From a virus, in the IMG/VR virus record IMGVR_UViG_3300047629_000040, positions 1-28,304 of that record: a stretch of DNA of 28,304 bases; one strand, given 5' to 3'. The translations under genes and the position numbers were made by a program. The notes below the pieces were generated by a model. That model worked only from the letters and a program-made list of their open reading frames with translations, had not been told where the DNA came from and did no database searches. The first letter of the stretch is position 1; every line of letters begins with the position of its first letter. This document shows, one piece after another, positions 5,954 through 26,246 of the stretch.

Positions 5954-6139
5954 TTAAGGTTTTTCCCACGCTTCGCCATTATTAATGCGCTCTTGGATTT
6001 CACCACGATGGATTGATATGTGTTTTGGTGCGTCAATTGCAAATTTGATTTGACCTGGATTCTTTGACTTTTCACACACAATGGTTATTTCATTGTTGAT
6101 GACTATGGTTTCACCTGGTCGTCTCGTTAAAACTAGCAT
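5954..6139 (-). CDS. csrA: Carbon storage regulator CsrA (phage-encoded)
   Basis: 61 aa, the usual CsrA length. CsrA is a dimeric RNA-binding protein that blocks or protects mRNAs at GGA motifs. The N-terminal strand MLVLTRRPGE and the C-terminal PKHISIHRGEIQERI are preserved. The RNA-contact residues L4, R6 and R7 are present, and R45 matches R44 of E. coli CsrA with a one-residue insertion (NPG loop, 27-29). AGGAG lies eight bases before the ATG. It is the last gene of the leftward operon of tiny genes, just before a terminator. It may retune host metabolism or phage translation; binding targets are unknown. Confidence 0.93.
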   Translation of the reverse strand: MLVLTRRPGETIVINNEITIVCEKSKNPGQIKFAIDAPKHISIHRGEIQERINNGEAWEKP

Positions 6140-13208: not shown

Positions 13209-13371
13209 TTCAATAATTAAAAAATATACAAATGAAGAGATGGTGAAAAAATTGGAAGAATTATTAAATCCATATCTTGATGTATATGCAGCAATACTGA
13301 GTGATTGTTTGATTCATGATAATCGCCCAACTGAAGAAGAATTTTTGGCTATGCGAAATGACCCCAAATGA
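13201..13371 (+). CDS. Small phage protein upstream of large terminase
   Basis: 56 aa starting inside the end of the DUF551 gene (GATGAATAA junction). Helical, Lys/Glu-rich, with NRPTEEEFLAMRNDP near the end. Overlaps the terminase start by 14 bases. Unrecognised. Confidence 0.62.
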   Translation: MNNSIIKKYTNEEMVKKLEELLNPYLDVYAAILSDCLIHDNRPTEEEFLAMRNDPK

Positions 13372-14916: not shown

Positions 14917-17040
14917 ATGCAAGTTGCTCAACGATATCAAGACCGATTATCTAAGATAAAAAACCGCGTTCGTAATTCACATGATTATTTCCGTGAAAAC
15001 TACGACAGATACAATGAATTCATCCGCTTTGTCTTTGAATCAAATTTAACTGGCGATGAAATTACTCTTCTTCAAACTATGAATAAACCTCAATTAGAAT
15101 TCAATATTCTAGAATCTAGAATATCAAGATTGCTTGGTGAATTCAGTAAGCAAGAGCCAGATATATATGTGACATCTGATAATCAAAATGATGTGGATTG
15201 GATGACAATGAAAGTTGTTGAGCAGCATCTTCGTCACGTTTTGCTTGATATTAAGAATGAACATACAAGGTACGAAGTATATAAAGACCTACTTGCCGGT
15301 GGTTTTTCTGTCTTCAAAGTTTACACCGACTATGCAAATTCCATGTCGATGGATCAGGTGATTAATATTGTTCGTGCAGAGCCGACTTTGTCAGTTTTTG
15401 ATAAACTAGCTAGACTGCCTCACAAAGGCGATGGAATGTTTTGTGCCGAACTTTTTCCTAAGAGCAAAGAAGATTTTGAAGAAGAATTCCCAGATGTCCC
15501 AACCAATACGTTAAGTTTTAGACGTGATTTTGCCGGATTCAACTGGTCATACATCAATGATAATTCATCCATTATTCTGGTTGCTGATTATTATGAAAAG
15601 GTTAAGCGTGAGAAGACGATTGTTAAAGTTCGTGATGACGAAAATCCTAATGGCAAAGTGATGACCATGGAAGCTTATCGAAAGCTTCTTGATGAATGGA
15701 ATGATATTACAATGCCTCCGGTTCAAATGGGAAAGCCGAGAAAAACGCTAATTGATAGAATTGATAGGTATCGTGTGATTGACAATCAGGTTCTTGAATA
15801 TGAACAGACTGATTATACGATGCTTCCATTGATTTTTGTTGATGGCTCTAGCGTCATGGTTAAGACGCCAAAAAATGGAAATGTCAGGCAGGTATGTCGC
15901 CCTTATGTTTATAATGCCCGTGGAGCTCAACGTTTAAAAAATTACGCGGGTATTGCATTAGCAAATGAAATTGAAAACGAAACTCAAGCAAAATTGATGG
16001 TTGCAAAAGAAGCATTGCCTAAAGAAGAAGGATTGTTAGAAGCTTATGAGAATCCGTCTAAGGCGAATGTCTATGTATTCAATTCCGTTCATGAAAATAA
16101 TCCTGAAATGCCTATAAGCAATCCCATTAGGGAAGTACAGAAAGTTCCAGCGCCTCCTGAGATAGCCCAAGCATTTAGCGGTGCTGATTCTTTAATGGAG
16201 CAAATCCTTGGCTCTTATGATGCGGCACTTGGCATTAATAACAATCAGTTATCTGGTGTTGCCATTGTCGAAGGGGCTACGCAGTCTAATTCGGCAGCAA
16301 TGCCTTATGTGGTTGGATTTATGCAGGGACTTCAAAGAGCGTCGCAAGTTTATGTGGATTTACTGCCTAAATATTACACCACTCCACGCACTATTCCTAT
16401 TTTAGATGAAGAAGGCAAGAGAAGTTTTGTTAAGATTAACACTGACGATGGACTACCTTTTGACTTTGATACAGATCCTTTAAATGTTGTAGTTAAAGCT
16501 GGAGCAAGTTTCCAAGTTCAGAAATCACGTACCATTATGATGGTTAAAGAGATGATGGGAATGTCTCCTTTGTTTGCACAATTTATTGCCGATAAAGGAT
16601 TGAATTTCGTTCTTGATAACATGGAAGGTAAAGGACTTGAGCAATTGAAATCAATGGTTGATGAGTGGCAAAAAGAACAAGAGCAACAAAAACAAATGGC
16701 TATGCAAATGCAACAACAAGAGATGCAAAATAATCCTGCTATTCTTAAGCAACAAGTTGATATGCAGAAATTGCAAATGGACGCTAAGAAGAATGAGGCT
16801 CAATTTGCTGTGGACATGGAGAAAATTAGGCTAGAAGAATATAAGACGAAGGCTGAAATACATATGAATGAAACTGGTTCCAGTGTTCAACTTGTTAAGG
16901 CATTAACAGAGCGTGCTAAATATGAAGCAGAACTTGAAATGAAAAAACTTGGCATGGCGCATACTCATTTAAAAGAAGCAATTGAAGTTCATCATATGAA
17001 AACATCGAAACCGAAAGAGGACAAAATGGCTAATGCTTAA
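14917..17040 (+). CDS. Portal protein, P22 gp1-like
   Basis: 707 aa, close to the P22 portal length. The N-terminal RENYDRYNEFIRFVFESNLT and the following KPQLEFNILESRISRLLGEF are typical of P22-type portals. The C-terminus (about 575-700) is a long Gln/Met/Lys-rich coiled coil, resembling the barrel of P22-type portals. It forms the dodecameric DNA channel at one capsid vertex. GAGGAC precedes the ATG. Ends eight bases inside the next gene. Confidence 0.92.
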   Translation: MQVAQRYQDRLSKIKNRVRNSHDYFRENYDRYNEFIRFVFESNLTGDEITLLQTMNKPQLEFNILESRISRLLGEFSKQEPDIYVTSDNQNDVDWMTMKVVEQHLRHVLLDIKNEHTRYEVYKDLLAGGFSVFKVYTDYANSMSMDQVINIVRAEPTLSVFDKLARLPHKGDGMFCAELFPKSKEDFEEEFPDVPTNTLSFRRDFAGFNWSYINDNSSIILVADYYEKVKREKTIVKVRDDENPNGKVMTMEAYRKLLDEWNDITMPPVQMGKPRKTLIDRIDRYRVIDNQVLEYEQTDYTMLPLIFVDGSSVMVKTPKNGNVRQVCRPYVYNARGAQRLKNYAGIALANEIENETQAKLMVAKEALPKEEGLLEAYENPSKANVYVFNSVHENNPEMPISNPIREVQKVPAPPEIAQAFSGADSLMEQILGSYDAALGINNNQLSGVAIVEGATQSNSAAMPYVVGFMQGLQRASQVYVDLLPKYYTTPRTIPILDEEGKRSFVKINTDDGLPFDFDTDPLNVVVKAGASFQVQKSRTIMMVKEMMGMSPLFAQFIADKGLNFVLDNMEGKGLEQLKSMVDEWQKEQEQQKQMAMQMQQQEMQNNPAILKQQVDMQKLQMDAKKNEAQFAVDMEKIRLEEYKTKAEIHMNETGSSVQLVKALTERAKYEAELEMKKLGMAHTHLKEAIEVHHMKTSKPKEDKMANA

Positions 17041-18515: not shown

Positions 18516-19496
18516 GTGTCACCCATAATTTATCAGTTACCGACTCCTATTCCTGCAACAGTTGGAGTTTTGCCAAATTTTAAATTTATGGTATCTGGAG
18601 ATGATTTAGTTACCTTAACTACTCCTGGGTATCTTAATCAACTCTCGTCCCAATTAGAGCCTGTGGCATCTTCAGATATTTTGCAAATTTTGTATAATTA
18701 TTCCAACAATTCCAACACTGGATCTTACGGTATTTTTCTTGTTTCAATTGATAGCTCGACTGGATTGATTACTTTGTCTGAGTGGGCTAATACAGAAAAT
18801 GTTATATTATTATCCACTTATACTCAAAGTAATGGTACTGTAACTTTTACAGTTCCTCCAAATGCTTTATATATAAATTATTATATAAGCGCACCTGGTG
18901 GTGGAGGAGGTGGATTCGTTGATGGGGGTGGCGCTAACACATTCGGAGCTGGAGGAGGCGGTGGCGCTGGTACGGTCGTTCAAGGTTCCTGGACCATTTA
19001 TGATGGTCCCAATAAAATTCCGAATAACTCATTTCAAATTACAATAAATCCTGCTGGTGCTGGCGGTGTCGGAAGTGCAAATGGTGCAAATGGCGGCACT
19101 ATAGTTTTGACTTTCCCTGCTCCTACACCATCCACAACGATTGTTGGAGGATCTGGTGGGTTGGGAGCCACCGGCGTTGCAAATACAGCGGCTTCATTTT
19201 CAGCCGGAGGCCCAGGAGGTAATGGAATTATTGGTGGTGGATTCGGTAATGTTTCACGTGGCCAACAAGGAGGCAATGGATTGTCTGTTTTAGGTCAGGT
19301 AGCGTCTGGGGCTGGTGGTAATTCTAATTACAACGCTGGTGGGGTTAGTAGAGTAAATATTAATAGTAACGGATTCTCTGGTTCATTTGGCGGCGCTGGC
19401 GGAGGTGGAGCTTGCGGAATAGCATCTGGAACTCAAACAGGAGGCTCAGGAGGACCCGGGTTTGTTCTTTTTAATATTTATGGGATAGGGCCGTAG
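18516..19496 (+). CDS. Glycine-rich fibre/adhesin-like protein A
   Basis: 326 aa with GTG start (AAGGAG six bases before; the ATG two bases earlier hits a stop). Residues 1-85 are shared with the next gene (MSPxIYQ, PNFKxMV, ILQILYN). Residues about 115-320 hold many Gly-rich runs (GGGGGGF, GAGGGGGAG, GGAGGGGACG), like the polyglycine blocks in receptor-binding adhesins such as T-even gp38. Likely virion surface or receptor-binding protein. The shared N-terminus would be the attachment module and the Gly-rich part the variable tip. Function inferred. Confidence 0.7.
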   Translation: MSPIIYQLPTPIPATVGVLPNFKFMVSGDDLVTLTTPGYLNQLSSQLEPVASSDILQILYNYSNNSNTGSYGIFLVSIDSSTGLITLSEWANTENVILLSTYTQSNGTVTFTVPPNALYINYYISAPGGGGGGFVDGGGANTFGAGGGGGAGTVVQGSWTIYDGPNKIPNNSFQITINPAGAGGVGSANGANGGTIVLTFPAPTPSTTIVGGSGGLGATGVANTAASFSAGGPGGNGIIGGGFGNVSRGQQGGNGLSVLGQVASGAGGNSNYNAGGVSRVNINSNGFSGSFGGAGGGGACGIASGTQTGGSGGPGFVLFNIYGIGP

Positions 19497-19535
19497 TTTA
19501 CATGAAAAAAATACTTTACGATGAGGAATTATAAA

Positions 19536-20645
19536 ATGAGCCCAAAAATTTATCAAATGCCACAGCCATTAACTGGGACGACGGGTGTTGTTCCTAATTT
19601 TAAATATATGGTATGCGGCGATAATTTAGATACTATAACATCTGCAGGATATCTAAATAGTTTAGATTTACAGAGTTATCCAATATCATCTACCGATATT
19701 TTGCAAATTTTGTATAATTTCAATTTGCAAACCCAAGTGGGAAGTTATGGTGCTTTTACGGTCTCTTTAACAGATGGAATTATAACGCTTACGGCTGCTT
19801 CAGTTCCAGGAGAAATTATATTGCCCGTTACTCCAGGAAACTTCGCAAATTGGGCAAATACTTCTGGTGCTTTACATGATCTTGGCTATTCACCTACAAA
19901 TTCATCTTTAAATAAAGTAGCGATGTACAATGGAGCTATTGCCGCAAAAATTAATTATGTACCGGTTTTTTCAGATGCAAACGGAAGCATCCGAGAACAA
20001 GTTACAAATGATAATTATAATATGGATGGACCTTTAATTGTAAACGGATATGCGGAAGCAACTGCCGTGATAATTAAACAAACACCAGATTCATCTGCAG
20101 CATCTTTATTAAGCTTGGATTCTCTCTCAGAGAATAGCAATTATTTTTTAGCAGATCCCGTTATCGGCGTTGCTACCATCCCTGTTTTTCCATCAAATCC
20201 TGTTACAGTGCCTGCCGGAAATTTAATAGTAGCTGGAAGCGATGCCGGAACTCTTGCCGATGGAGGATCTCCAGTCAGTGGGTTTGTTTCAACATCTGGA
20301 ACGTCGACTATGCAGACGGGAAGTGAAATAGTTTTTGATCATACATTCCCCCAAACTATAGGGGGCGGAGATACTGTAACAATAAATAATCAATCTGGTA
20401 TTATTCAAACCAATACTTTAACTACCGCAGGTGGTGCAATGTATACTTTTACATTGAATAATAGTTTGTTAAAAGCCGATGGTAATATACAGCTGCAAAC
20501 TCAATATGGAGATAACACTGTTACTAATATTGAATGTACTCTATTAAGTCCATGTACTAATGGTTCATGTCAGATTACTTTAATTAATAATAATACGGTT
20601 CCAATGAATGGTAATATGAAAATATATTTTTTTGTTCCTTATTAA
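19536..20645 (+). CDS. Fibre-like protein B, paralogue of 18516
   Basis: 369 aa from ATG 19536 (GAGGAA nine bases before; ATG 19521 is less likely). N-terminal 85 residues match protein A, including a 25-base identical DNA stretch (19695-19719 with 18675-18699). The rest differs: a segment GALHDLGYSPTNSSLNKVAM and a C-terminal beta-rich domain ending MNGNMKIYFFVPY. Beta-rich, Ser/Thr/Asn-rich, as phage fibres are. Two proteins with one N-terminus and different C-termini suggest alternative receptor-binding tips. Confidence 0.7.
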   Translation: MSPKIYQMPQPLTGTTGVVPNFKYMVCGDNLDTITSAGYLNSLDLQSYPISSTDILQILYNFNLQTQVGSYGAFTVSLTDGIITLTAASVPGEIILPVTPGNFANWANTSGALHDLGYSPTNSSLNKVAMYNGAIAAKINYVPVFSDANGSIREQVTNDNYNMDGPLIVNGYAEATAVIIKQTPDSSAASLLSLDSLSENSNYFLADPVIGVATIPVFPSNPVTVPAGNLIVAGSDAGTLADGGSPVSGFVSTSGTSTMQTGSEIVFDHTFPQTIGGGDTVTINNQSGIIQTNTLTTAGGAMYTFTLNNSLLKADGNIQLQTQYGDNTVTNIECTLLSPCTNGSCQITLINNNTVPMNGNMKIYFFVPY

Positions 20646-20657
20646 TATATAACAAGG

Positions 20658-20685
20658 CCCAATCCTCTGCGCGAGTACGATTGGG
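20658..20685. terminator. Probable bidirectional terminator hairpin
   Basis: CCCAATC (20658-20664) pairs with GATTGGG (20679-20685), loop 14 bases. It lies between the convergent genes ending at 20645 and 20690. The U-tract is weak on both strands. Confidence 0.45.
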
Positions 20686-20689
20686 TTAT

Positions 20690-21139
20690 CTATGATTCAT
20701 TTAGTTTTTTATAGATATCAAATATTGTTGATGAAAAACCAGGTATTTTTTCATTTATCCTTCTGATTATTCCTTCTGGAGATTTCTCAATTTCAATATT
20801 TTGAATAAGTCTGTATTGTTCGCATAAAATAGTTCTAAATTCATTTATTTCATGATTGATATTGTTCATGGGAAATTGAACTAAATCTTTTATTTCATTA
20901 ATTATAGTGTTTCTTAAGACCGCTAATAAATCATCTTTTTCCAATTTTATTTCATTAGATTTTCTATACCAATAAATAGCTTTTTTAATGTATTTTAATT
21001 GTTGTTTACCTATTCCATGTATGGATAACAATTCAGCCTCAGTTGCTTCCAATAATTGAGGCAATACCAGTATTTTTCCTCTAAATTTTAAGATATAAAT
21101 AATTTCATCAGATAATGGTAAGTCACGTATATCAATCAT
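20690..21139 (-). CDS. Protein with RNA polymerase alpha-CTD-like domain
   Basis: 149 aa. Residues 3-56 (IRDLPLSDEIIYILKFRG, LLEATEAELLSIHGIGKQQL, YIKKAI) follow the alpha-CTD pattern of bacterial RpoA: E-D-L-x-L-S, a helix, T-E-x-E-L-L, then N-L-G-K-K-S-L. By eye the DNA-contact R265 of E. coli alpha is E12 here and N268 is Y15; G296 and K297 are kept (G44, K45). Residues 60-149 are a long helix-rich extension. It could bind sigma, activators or DNA in place of host alpha, or be a plain helix-hairpin-helix protein. Start overlaps the HTH gene's stop (ATGA). Confidence 0.62.
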   Translation of the reverse strand: MIDIRDLPLSDEIIYILKFRGKILVLPQLLEATEAELLSIHGIGKQQLKYIKKAIYWYRKSNEIKLEKDDLLAVLRNTIINEIKDLVQFPMNNINHEINEFRTILCEQYRLIQNIEIEKSPEGIIRRINEKIPGFSSTIFDIYKKLNES

Positions 21140-21333
21140 TTCTCCACCATATTTTCTTTAAACCATTCATCTGTTTTTTCAACATAATAATAAACTTTCC
21201 CTTTTCCTTTCATTTGAAGATAAGGTGGACCTTTCTTTTTATTGCGCATAATTCTAAACCAAGACTGGGAGTAGCCATACCTTTCCGCTGCTTCTTTATC
21301 TGTCATTACCAATTCATTCATGAGCTTAATCAT
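21136..21333 (-). CDS. AlpA/Xis-like HTH DNA-binding protein
   Basis: 65 aa. Residues about 10-58 match the MerR-like winged HTH of AlpA and excisionases: TDKEAAERYGYSQSWFRIM, then GPPYLQMKGKGKVYYYVEKT and DEWFKEN. AGAGGGA precedes ATG 21333. Encoded against all its neighbours, in one operon with the alpha-CTD-like protein, with its own extended -10 promoter. It may be an activator or repressor; excisionase is less likely because no integrase is seen. Confidence 0.78.
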   Translation of the reverse strand: MIKLMNELVMTDKEAAERYGYSQSWFRIMRNKKKGPPYLQMKGKGKVYYYVEKTDEWFKENMVEK

Positions 21334-21370
21334 AAATAAATCCCTCTATTTTTGTTAAAAATGTTAATCG

Positions 21371-21379
21371 ATTATAGCA
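21371..21379 (-). promoter_or_regulatory. Extended -10 promoter of the HTH/alpha-CTD-like cassette
   Basis: On the minus strand TGCTATAAT (21379-21371) is a perfect extended -10; the -35 region (ATGATT at 17 bases) is poor. Transcript would start about 30 bases before ATG 21333. The rest of the gap 21380-21550 holds no gene I can support. Confidence 0.6.
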
Positions 21380-21553
21380 ACCTTTGAACAATAAATCATT
21401 ATTAATTAAAGTCTAATCAACAATTGTTTGTATGTAGACTCGTGACATATAGCGAGGTTGAAAACTACCGTAGCAGCGGGCAAAGGCTAAGTTACCCATA
21501 CTTAAAATTGGGGAAATCAGCGTGGTGGCGTTAATAACCAGAGGACGTAATTG

Positions 21554-22333: not shown

Positions 22334-23650
22334 ATGGCCGTATTTCCCAATAATATTTTACAACAGGTACAAACCTATCAACGTTCGGGTTTAGCTTTGT
22401 TACAAAACCTGTGCTGCCATATCAGTACAGCTAATACAAAATTTAAAGACTTTGATCAAATCCAAGCAAATCTTGGGTCTGTGGTGACATTTGACTTACC
22501 ACCAAGAGCCACGACTGTTGCCGGTCTTGTGGCAGCTTTCCAGCCAGCTGTTCAGCGCGTGCAAACATTGGCATGTGACCAAGCAAACAACAGCTCATTT
22601 GCCGTAACTTCACAACAACGCATTTTCAACTTAGAAAAAGGTGAAGAAGATTATATGCGTGTGTTTGGTAAGAGTTTTATTGCTGAATTAGCTACTCAAG
22701 TTGAAGGTAATATTGCTCAAAACTGGGATTCAGGTGTTAGAAGCCAATTAGATGGTACATTGAATACTTTCTCGGGCCCTTATCGATTCTTCGGTAATGG
22801 TAGTACAGCGTTAAGTTCCTATCAGCAATTGGCTCAAGCTATCATGCTATTTAAGAACTATGGATCTGTGGCTGAAGGTATTAAGGTTTATCTGCCAGAT
22901 ACAGTTATTCCTGCGATTGTTGGTAGTGGTTTAAATCAATTCGTTCCTCATCGTAACGATGACATTGCTATGTCTTGGGAAGTTGGCGATTTTGGTACAC
23001 CTTTAGTTAACTATTATCAGTCAAACTTAATGCCTATTCACATTTCTGGAAATACTGGAGTTTTAGGCCAAGTATTGACTGTAGTAAGTACTAATGATCC
23101 AACAGGACAAAATGTCACTCAAATTACAGTTTCTGGGGCTACAGCTAGTGATGCTCAGGCAGTATTTTCTGGTGACTTGTTTGAATTTAATGACGGCGTA
23201 TCAGGATTTCCAAATATGCGTTATTTAACATTTATTGGTCATTTCCCAAGTGCTAATCCTGTTCAATTTAGGGCAACCGCAGATGCTGCTGCCACTGGTG
23301 GTGGAGATGTTACTATAACTATCACTCCTGCTCTTAACTGGGCTGGTGGTCAAAATCAAAACCTAAACAATCCTATTCAAGCCGGCATGCAGATTAGCGG
23401 TCTTCCATCACATAGATGTGGTGGCATTTTAGGAGGGGAAGCATTCTATTTAGCGATGCCTCAATTACCTGAACAATCACCTTATGATACTGCAAATGAA
23501 TACGATGAAGATACTGGTTGTTCATTGAGGCTGACATATGGCTCATTATTTGGTCAAAACCAGACAGGTATGATTTACGATGAAACTCATGGATCTGTTA
23601 TTGTTCCAGAATATTCAATGCGTTATATCATTCCTCTGTCACAGGGCTAA
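22334..23650 (+). CDS. Major capsid protein, P22 coat (gp5)-like
   Basis: 438 aa, matching P22 coat length (430). N-terminal NNILQQVQTYQRSGLALLQN and the SSFAVTSQQRIFNLEKGEEDYMRVFG segment, followed by LATQVEGNIAQ, are features of P22-type coats with the HK97 fold. A middle beta-rich stretch (about 225-345) corresponds to the extra inserted domain of the family. AGGAG precedes the ATG. Forms the icosahedral shell. Confidence 0.9.
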   Translation: MAVFPNNILQQVQTYQRSGLALLQNLCCHISTANTKFKDFDQIQANLGSVVTFDLPPRATTVAGLVAAFQPAVQRVQTLACDQANNSSFAVTSQQRIFNLEKGEEDYMRVFGKSFIAELATQVEGNIAQNWDSGVRSQLDGTLNTFSGPYRFFGNGSTALSSYQQLAQAIMLFKNYGSVAEGIKVYLPDTVIPAIVGSGLNQFVPHRNDDIAMSWEVGDFGTPLVNYYQSNLMPIHISGNTGVLGQVLTVVSTNDPTGQNVTQITVSGATASDAQAVFSGDLFEFNDGVSGFPNMRYLTFIGHFPSANPVQFRATADAAATGGGDVTITITPALNWAGGQNQNLNNPIQAGMQISGLPSHRCGGILGGEAFYLAMPQLPEQSPYDTANEYDEDTGCSLRLTYGSLFGQNQTGMIYDETHGSVIVPEYSMRYIIPLSQG

Positions 23651-25299: not shown

Positions 25300-25860
25300 A
25301 TGCATTGTAATAGACATGGTGAACTTTCTTCCGATCAAATACGTTCTTATATCCGCAACAGAAGAGGAAGTTCAAAATTAGTGCATGGATGCAAATTATG
25401 TCATAGAATGTCAGCTGGGTCTTCGAAAAAAAAAGCAAGAGAAGATTATAGAAATGGTATAACTGATGTTGAGCCAATCGAAAATATTAGAACCAGAGAA
25501 GACAGAAAGAAAAATCCAGAAAAATATAGAAAATGGTCAAAAAATTCCAGGGAAAAACAAGGAACTTTTAGAAATGTTGTTGAGATATGTCGGGTCCGTT
25601 CAATATCTACAAATGAATATCAATCAATTTTAAAATCACAAAATTACAAATGCGCAATTTGCAAACAATCAGAAACTCGTAAAAATAGAGCAGGTGAAAT
25701 AGCTCGTCTATGTCTCGACCACAATCATAAAACCAATAAAATTCGAGAATTTCTTTGTCATAATTGTAATGTAATGATAGGTAAATTTCATGAGTCCATT
25801 GAATTTATTGAATCGGCAATTAATTATTTAATAATTCATGGTGATGTATGCCGGAAATAA
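25300..25860 (+). CDS. Recombination endonuclease VII-like nuclease A
   Basis: 186 aa. Residues about 115-165 carry the endonuclease VII core: CAIC, CLDHNHKTNKIREFLCHNC and NVMIGKF, with four zinc cysteines and the DH active-site pair. An N-terminal C/H set (CNRHGEL, HGCKLC) may bind a second zinc. These enzymes resolve branched DNA before packaging, and free-standing copies also act as homing endonucleases. Own promoter; overlaps the next paralogue by 13 bases. Confidence 0.87.
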   Translation: MHCNRHGELSSDQIRSYIRNRRGSSKLVHGCKLCHRMSAGSSKKKAREDYRNGITDVEPIENIRTREDRKKNPEKYRKWSKNSREKQGTFRNVVEICRVRSISTNEYQSILKSQNYKCAICKQSETRKNRAGEIARLCLDHNHKTNKIREFLCHNCNVMIGKFHESIEFIESAINYLIIHGDVCRK

Positions 25861-26246
25861 TAAAAATATGTAAGATGTGTGGACCATTAACAATAGATAA
25901 AACTAGGACAGAAAAAAATAGTATTTATTTACGTATAGAATGTTTATTCTGTAGGCGACAGAAACAAATATTGAATAGAAGAAAAATATCTAAAATAGAT
26001 TATGATTTTTTATTTGAAAAACAAGAAAACAAATGTGCTATATGCCGAAAAGAAGAATTATTAATAAGCAGGGGTGGTCATGTTGCGCCTTTGTGTGTTG
26101 ATCATTGCCATTTGTGTAATAGTAATCGAGGATTATTATGTCATGACTGTAATACTTCGATCGGAAGAGCTAAAGACAATATAAGCATCCTCCAATCCGC
26201 CATAGACTACCTAAAAAAACACAACCATGTCGAGAACAATCTCTAA
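25848..26246 (+). CDS. Recombination endonuclease VII-like nuclease B
   Basis: 132 aa paralogue of the preceding gene. N-terminal CKMCGPL and CLFC, then CAIC, CVDHCHLC, GLLCHDCNTSIGRA and the C-terminal LQSAIDYL helix. The active-site DH is present. No separate promoter; translation probably coupled to nuclease A (13-base overlap). Two tandem copies suggest duplication or sequential insertion. Confidence 0.85.
   Translation: MPEIIKICKMCGPLTIDKTRTEKNSIYLRIECLFCRRQKQILNRRKISKIDYDFLFEKQENKCAICRKEELLISRGGHVAPLCVDHCHLCNSNRGLLCHDCNTSIGRAKDNISILQSAIDYLKKHNHVENNL

Follow-up and report, generated by a model that had tools for sequence, protein, structure and literature searches.

A 149-amino-acid protein encoded among the head genes of a phage has at its N-terminus, judging from sequence profiles and a structural model, a genuine domain of the RNA polymerase alpha-CTD type. 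The gene is phage cargo that can be exchanged, and it is found at two insertion sites. We propose that it encodes a transcription adaptor, in which a captured domain of this type would be followed by a helical spacer and by a C-terminal docking module specific to the phage. We put the probability of this proposal at roughly 45%.

A minus-strand gene pair among the head genes

The window, by which we mean the whole 28,304-base virus record that we analyzed, is from a podovirus-like phage group. Its plus strand encodes a P22-type portal, TerL, a scaffold protein, and the major capsid protein (MCP). Two genes on the minus strand sit between a tail/fiber-like gene (which ends at 20645) and the scaffold gene (which starts at 21551 or 21554). 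An earlier note, made from the letters of the window, had described them as coupled ORFs inside the head-gene block. Both are present as claimed, with plus-strand neighbors and an ATGA overlap. The features of the locus are:

terL at 13316, portal at 14917, scaffold at 21551, and MCP at 22334, plus strand: head genes
20658–20685, minus strand: inverted repeat, CCCAATC/GATTGGG (7 bp with a 14-nt loop), lying between the convergent genes, read from the sequence
20690–21139, minus strand: alpha-CTD gene, 149 amino acids, with an N-terminal alpha-CTD-type domain, a long helix, and a conserved C-terminal helical module
20693–20863, minus strand: family-specific C-terminal module (residues 93–149), the most conserved part
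20864–20971, minus strand: variable helical linker (residues 57–92), part of a long helix (45–119), with the lowest identity between members
20972–21139, minus strand: alpha-CTD-like domain (residues 1–56), identified by PF03118, by the family profile against PDB, and by fold
21104–21106, minus strand: codon for E12, the residue aligned with R265 of the E. coli alpha-CTD
21136–21333, minus strand: AlpA-like HTH gene, 65 amino acids, a backbone gene
21142–21148, minus strand: GGTGGAG, the likely ribosome-binding site of the alpha-CTD gene, within the end of AlpA, read from the sequence
21341–21346, minus strand: GAGGGA, the likely ribosome-binding site of AlpA, read from the sequence
21371–21379, minus strand: extended -10 of the AlpA promoter (TGCTATAAT), conserved in L011 and L012

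The gene pair is real and not an artifact, since a near-identical record (L010) has 99.96% identity to the window over 11 kb and another locus (L003) has an equivalent pair, which also overlaps. The alpha-CTD protein of L003 is 62% identical to the window's. The inverted repeat is a possible shared terminator for the convergent genes; it was not reported by a terminator scan that demands loops of 3–8.

The 65-amino-acid protein matches HTH_17 (PF12728) with 25.7 bits (E = 1.4e-5), just under the cut-off of 27, and it also matches the AlpA/excisionase family PHROG 66. A homolog at the equivalent site in L005 scores 27.2 bits against HTH_17. The pair had also been credited with its own extended -10 promoter. 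The motif is weak by itself: the window contains 4 such motifs, which is not above the 3.05 expected by chance. The position is what supports the promoter, as the -10 lies at an equal distance from AlpA in L012 (TGCTATAAT) and L011 (TGTTACAAT). Among the 65 related loci in which the sequence extends 1 kb or more ahead of the scaffold gene, 55 have an AlpA-like gene, and in all 55 it is on the opposite strand from the scaffold gene. The AlpA-like gene and its promoter are part of the phage backbone.

We also noticed some other features of the window. The adjacent tail/fiber-like genes at 18516–19496 and 19521–20645 (plus strand) have paralogous first parts (71% DNA identity over ~140 bases), and this looks like a tandem duplication. 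At 5954–6139 (minus strand) there is a phage-borne CsrA homolog (Pfam CsrA, E = 5e-18; PHROG CsrA-like regulator, E = 2.5e-19). Downstream of the capsid genes are two tandem, overlapping genes of the endonuclease VII type (PF02945), at 25300–25860 and 25848–26246 (plus strand).

The N-terminal domain is of the alpha-CTD type

We scanned IMG/VR and ran HMM searches on loci retrieved via the capsid protein, and found seven distinct members of the family: the window protein and those of L003, L005, L020, L045, L055, and L081. The best Pfam match for residues 4–54 of the window protein is RNA_pol_A_CTD (PF03118), with E = 9.8e-4, versus 0.04 for HHH_5. By itself, the window protein misses the gathering score for PF03118 (19.2 bits instead of 23.8). 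The relatives from L005, L055, and L020 exceed it, with 40.7, 37.3, and 28.9 bits, respectively; for L020, the HHH_5 score is as good. When a profile of the seven members was compared to PDB sequences, about 55 RNA polymerase alpha chains were on top (best E = 4.6e-9), followed by DNA ligase, which has a helix-hairpin-helix (HhH) domain, at E = 0.013. On this ranking, we rejected a chance HhH resemblance. In one cellular genome (a Bacteroidetes MAG), the sole match to the seven-member profile was a 336-amino-acid open frame, which is the size of an alpha subunit. A search of NCBIfam gave weak hints of RadC.

AlphaFold models the window protein (pLDDT 86, pTM 0.43) as a helical N-terminal domain, a single long helix (residues 45–119), and two short helices. 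Residues 1–60 of the model superpose on alpha-CTDs with an rmsd of 1.1–1.3 Å over 57–59 residues (Z = 8.3–8.9). The N-terminal HhH domains of the RAD51 family align to the model with similar Z (~8), so the identity of the domain is decided by its sequence, as the fold by itself would leave it open. A Foldseek search with the full-length model found nothing at E < 0.001, probably because alpha-CTD chains have nothing that corresponds to the long helix, and the fold match at the level of the domain relies on rmsd and probability. The N-terminal assembly domain of RpoA is missing, and the other parts of the protein are only the helix and the C-terminal module.

The suggestion that the first 56 residues follow the alpha-CTD pattern is thus borne out by the relatives' PF03118 scores, by the ranking of PDB sequences, and by the predicted fold of the protein alone. 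A contest between RpoA_CTD and unrelated HhH families had been set beforehand as one point of refutation, and the alpha-CTD wins it.

The main rival to our proposal is that the protein is an HhH DNA-binding accessory, such as a helper for packaging, replication, or repair, with no link to RNA polymerase. Its resemblance to alpha-CTDs would then reflect the ancestry of the domain and nothing more. That HhH DNA-binding domains share the alpha-CTD fold, with RAD51-type domains fitting the model about as well, is a point for this rival and against a transcription adaptor. The tie between HHH_5 and PF03118 for L020 is a further point for the rival. However, the profiles favor RNA polymerase alpha over DNA ligase by many orders of magnitude. 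Together with the evidence from residues and gene positions described below, this leads us to consider the rival less likely than our proposal.

Loss of DNA-contact residues in one branch

At four positions where the alpha-CTD of E. coli contacts DNA, the window protein has R265 → E, N268 → Y, K298 → Q, and S299 → Q. The corresponding residues of L003 are E, K, S, and Q. The other five members (L005, L020, L045, L055, and L081) retain R265, and all of these except L045 also retain N268. So the loss of the DNA-contact residues appears, from the alignment, to be specific to the branch with the window and L003 and is not family-wide. The loss of R265 coincides with the branch whose gene is in the slot next to AlpA.

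The earlier note was correct that the R265 position is acidic (E12). It read this as a sign of protein contact rather than binding to UP elements, which fits the window and L003 but does not extend to the five of seven members that keep R265. Despite the lost DNA-contact residues, the domains of the window and L003 are 59% identical, and such conservation counts against a DNA-binding accessory. On the other hand, E261, which is part of the sigma-facing 261 determinant, is absent from all seven members, and the 287 determinant is retained inconsistently. Both observations count against a transcription adaptor.

A conserved C-terminal module

The last 57 residues are the most constrained part of the protein. 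Pairwise identity between members is 41–74% in this part, as compared to 19–59% in the alpha-CTD part and 4–43% in the linker. The consensus of the module is HEINELRTIxLEQYRLLQxIQxEKSPDGIxxKINEKIPGFSxTxYDLYKKLE. We found no convincing match to it in Pfam, PHROGs, NCBIfam, or PDB sequences. The strong constraint suggests that the module has a conserved partner.

Proposed role

If the protein is a transcription adaptor, then its ancestor probably bound DNA or joined promoter complexes as the alpha-CTD does, since the minor-groove arginine is kept in most of the relatives. The C-terminus of the ancestral protein would have held a partner from the phage or the host. In the window and L003, where the DNA-contact residues are lost, we infer a switch from DNA contact to protein contact: the domain most likely acts by touching other proteins, for instance as a decoy or a bridge at transcription complexes.

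A narrower version of the proposal is that the protein of the window and L003 is a decoy blind to DNA. With an acidic residue in place of R265, it would imitate the tail of the polymerase with the DNA contact turned off, and it would titrate or bridge activators, sigma, or the polymerase via its C-terminal module. As a specific mechanism, we think that this is improbable.

An exchangeable gene at two insertion sites

The GC content is 24.8% in the alpha-CTD gene and about 40% in the head genes. The nearest relatives of the window, L012 and L011, lose nucleotide homology to it at 21135 and 21138, respectively, which is where AlpA stops and the alpha-CTD gene starts. Past this break, L012 has an unrelated gene of 152 amino acids. 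In the portal tree, L012, L011, L013, and L015 are nearer to the window than L003 is, yet they have no alpha-CTD gene at the AlpA site.

The five members that retain R265 belong to a separate portal clade, and there the gene lies between terL and the portal gene, on the late strand. The gene's start is near the terL stop or overlaps it. These copies have no adjacent AlpA; instead, AlpA is ~5 kb away on the other strand. Their placement right after terL would suit a packaging helper, and an early role in transcription is not obvious for a gene in the packaging/head operon, which is a difficulty for the transcription adaptor. However, in the branch with the window and L003, the gene has left the packaging operon, which is a difficulty for the packaging helper.

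The neighbors of AlpA vary: the alpha-CTD gene (in the window and L003), a family with the motif SLDNWKP (in 11 loci), HNH nucleases, zinc-finger-like proteins, coiled coils, or none. In the window and across L003 and L011–L089, the position next to AlpA is a hypervariable cargo slot inside the head operon; in L089 it holds a stomatin-like protein. The SLDNWKP proteins are acidic, have ~170 amino acids, and share the motif SLDNWKP...QSxWRKxxIGNxFNQ; their genes mostly lie immediately upstream of AlpA, in the same orientation. They are found in L037 (8423–8941, minus strand), L045, L046, L048, L053, L054, L062, L064, L067, L069, and L077. A coiled-coil protein of 186–192 amino acids follows the alpha-CTD gene in L003 (6417–6977, plus strand) and follows AlpA directly in L015 (8262–8837, minus strand). 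Comparing these two gene orders, the alpha-CTD gene was inserted or lost between AlpA and the coiled-coil gene.

We did not find the alpha-CTD family outside of this phage group, either in a pattern scan of GTDB species genomes or in plasmids, and INPHARED phages gave only chance-level matches; absence from these collections holds at the sensitivity that we used. PADLOC gave no defense match of weight for the family. We tried to assign a host via matches to the MCP in genome contigs and rejected the result: the four matching contigs came from MAGs of unrelated phyla (Bacteroidetes, Parvularculaceae, Sulfuricurvum, and a beta-proteobacterium), which is likely to be binning noise. The window's MCP has no relative in INPHARED.

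The low GC content, the patchy distribution, the restriction to this phage group, and the very mixed contents of the slot are what a transient, moron-like passenger would show. Such a passenger would be without benefit to phage transcription and might be a host-modifying or superinfection factor that uses the alpha-CTD fold. But the C-terminal module is strongly conserved across deeply diverged phages, and the gene is found in two genomic contexts, so we give this explanation a low probability. The least probable explanation is the earlier note's own model, a single cassette in which the AlpA-like and alpha-CTD proteins jointly recruit or redirect host RNA polymerase: although the two genes are translationally coupled behind one promoter in the window, the overlapping pair recurs in L003, and every relative with an alpha-CTD gene has AlpA somewhere, AlpA is usually kept without any alpha-CTD gene and beside mixed neighbors or none, and the family's two insertion sites, with five copies far from AlpA, imply that the pair is not a fixed unit.

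A structured RNA before the scaffold gene

Within the 128 nt before the scaffold start (21426–21553, plus strand) is a conserved tandem RNA with two modules, each a hairpin plus an H-type pseudoknot. It occurs at the equivalent site in ~60 related loci (alignment A6), with strong compensatory covariation. Across 33 loci, pairing holds in 93% of cells, versus 29–50% with the partners slid (and 0 of 500 shuffles), but because we drew the structure by hand, using a single aligned sequence, this comparison favors it somewhat over the slid versions. Independently of that, 14 of the 17 pairs change on both sides. The region has no match in Rfam. It is possibly a new phage RNA that controls the translation of the scaffold or capsid proteins.

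Comparison with known systems

The AlpA-like protein is similar in size to AlpA/excisionase-type HTH_17 proteins and matches their HTH profiles (PHROG 66 and, just short of the cut-off, PF12728). It differs in being encoded by a backbone gene that opposes the scaffold/MCP operon of a phage with a P22-like portal, and a regulatory role for it is putative.

Phage proteins with alpha-CTDs are already known. Those annotated as such include Ruegeria phage V16 gp23, Bacillus phage Goe8 c00050, and Microbacterium phage Mazun gp26, as well as a protein from Mycobacterium phage Mithril and several uncultured Caudovirales entries (in BFVD). Like the window protein, these are phage-encoded, free-standing alpha-CTD-type domains. 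V16 gp23, Goe8 c00050, and Mazun gp26 have the equivalents of R265 and N268 (R..N), and their domains are arranged differently. The C-terminal module has no convincing match in V16, Goe8, or Mazun; the Mithril and Caudovirales entries are known to us by annotation only. So the family described here appears to be a variant with its own C-terminal module.

Our search of the literature on phage alpha-CTD proteins yielded reviews of phage T4 (PMC2988021, PMC2988020) and a report on Rac, a phage enzyme that acts on alpha (PMC7552054). In this literature, whose coverage is partial, we found no functional study of a phage-borne, free-standing alpha-CTD protein. The family offers a natural series within one phage group, with five members that have R265, two that do not, and a single conserved C-terminal module. 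It makes two ideas testable: that copies of the alpha-CTD serve to enter promoter complexes, and what follows from losing the DNA contact. It also points to a slot within a head operon where genes are exchanged next to a conserved HTH gene.

Compared to RpoA of E. coli, whose alpha-CTD (PF03118) spans residues 250–312, the window protein has the fold (1.1–1.3 Å) and the profile in common, and five relatives keep R265. The differences are that the window protein is free-standing, with the domain at its N-terminus and no alpha-NTD; that it has R265E, N268Y, K298Q, and S299Q and lacks E261; and that it adds a helical spacer and an unrelated C-terminal module.

During T4 infection, Alt and ModA ADP-ribosylate R265 of alpha, which alters the use of UP elements, and AsiA and MotA appropriate sigma (PMC2988021). 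By analogy, T4 shows that a phage can gain from altering the R265 surface. If the window protein is a decoy that does not contact DNA, then the parallel is that T4 switches off the R265 contact chemically, via ModA. What the T4 factors target in the host polymerase is likewise the R265 surface or sigma region 4. However, they are an enzyme activity and sigma-binding proteins, while the window protein is itself an alpha-CTD-type domain, with a putative effect on the polymerase.
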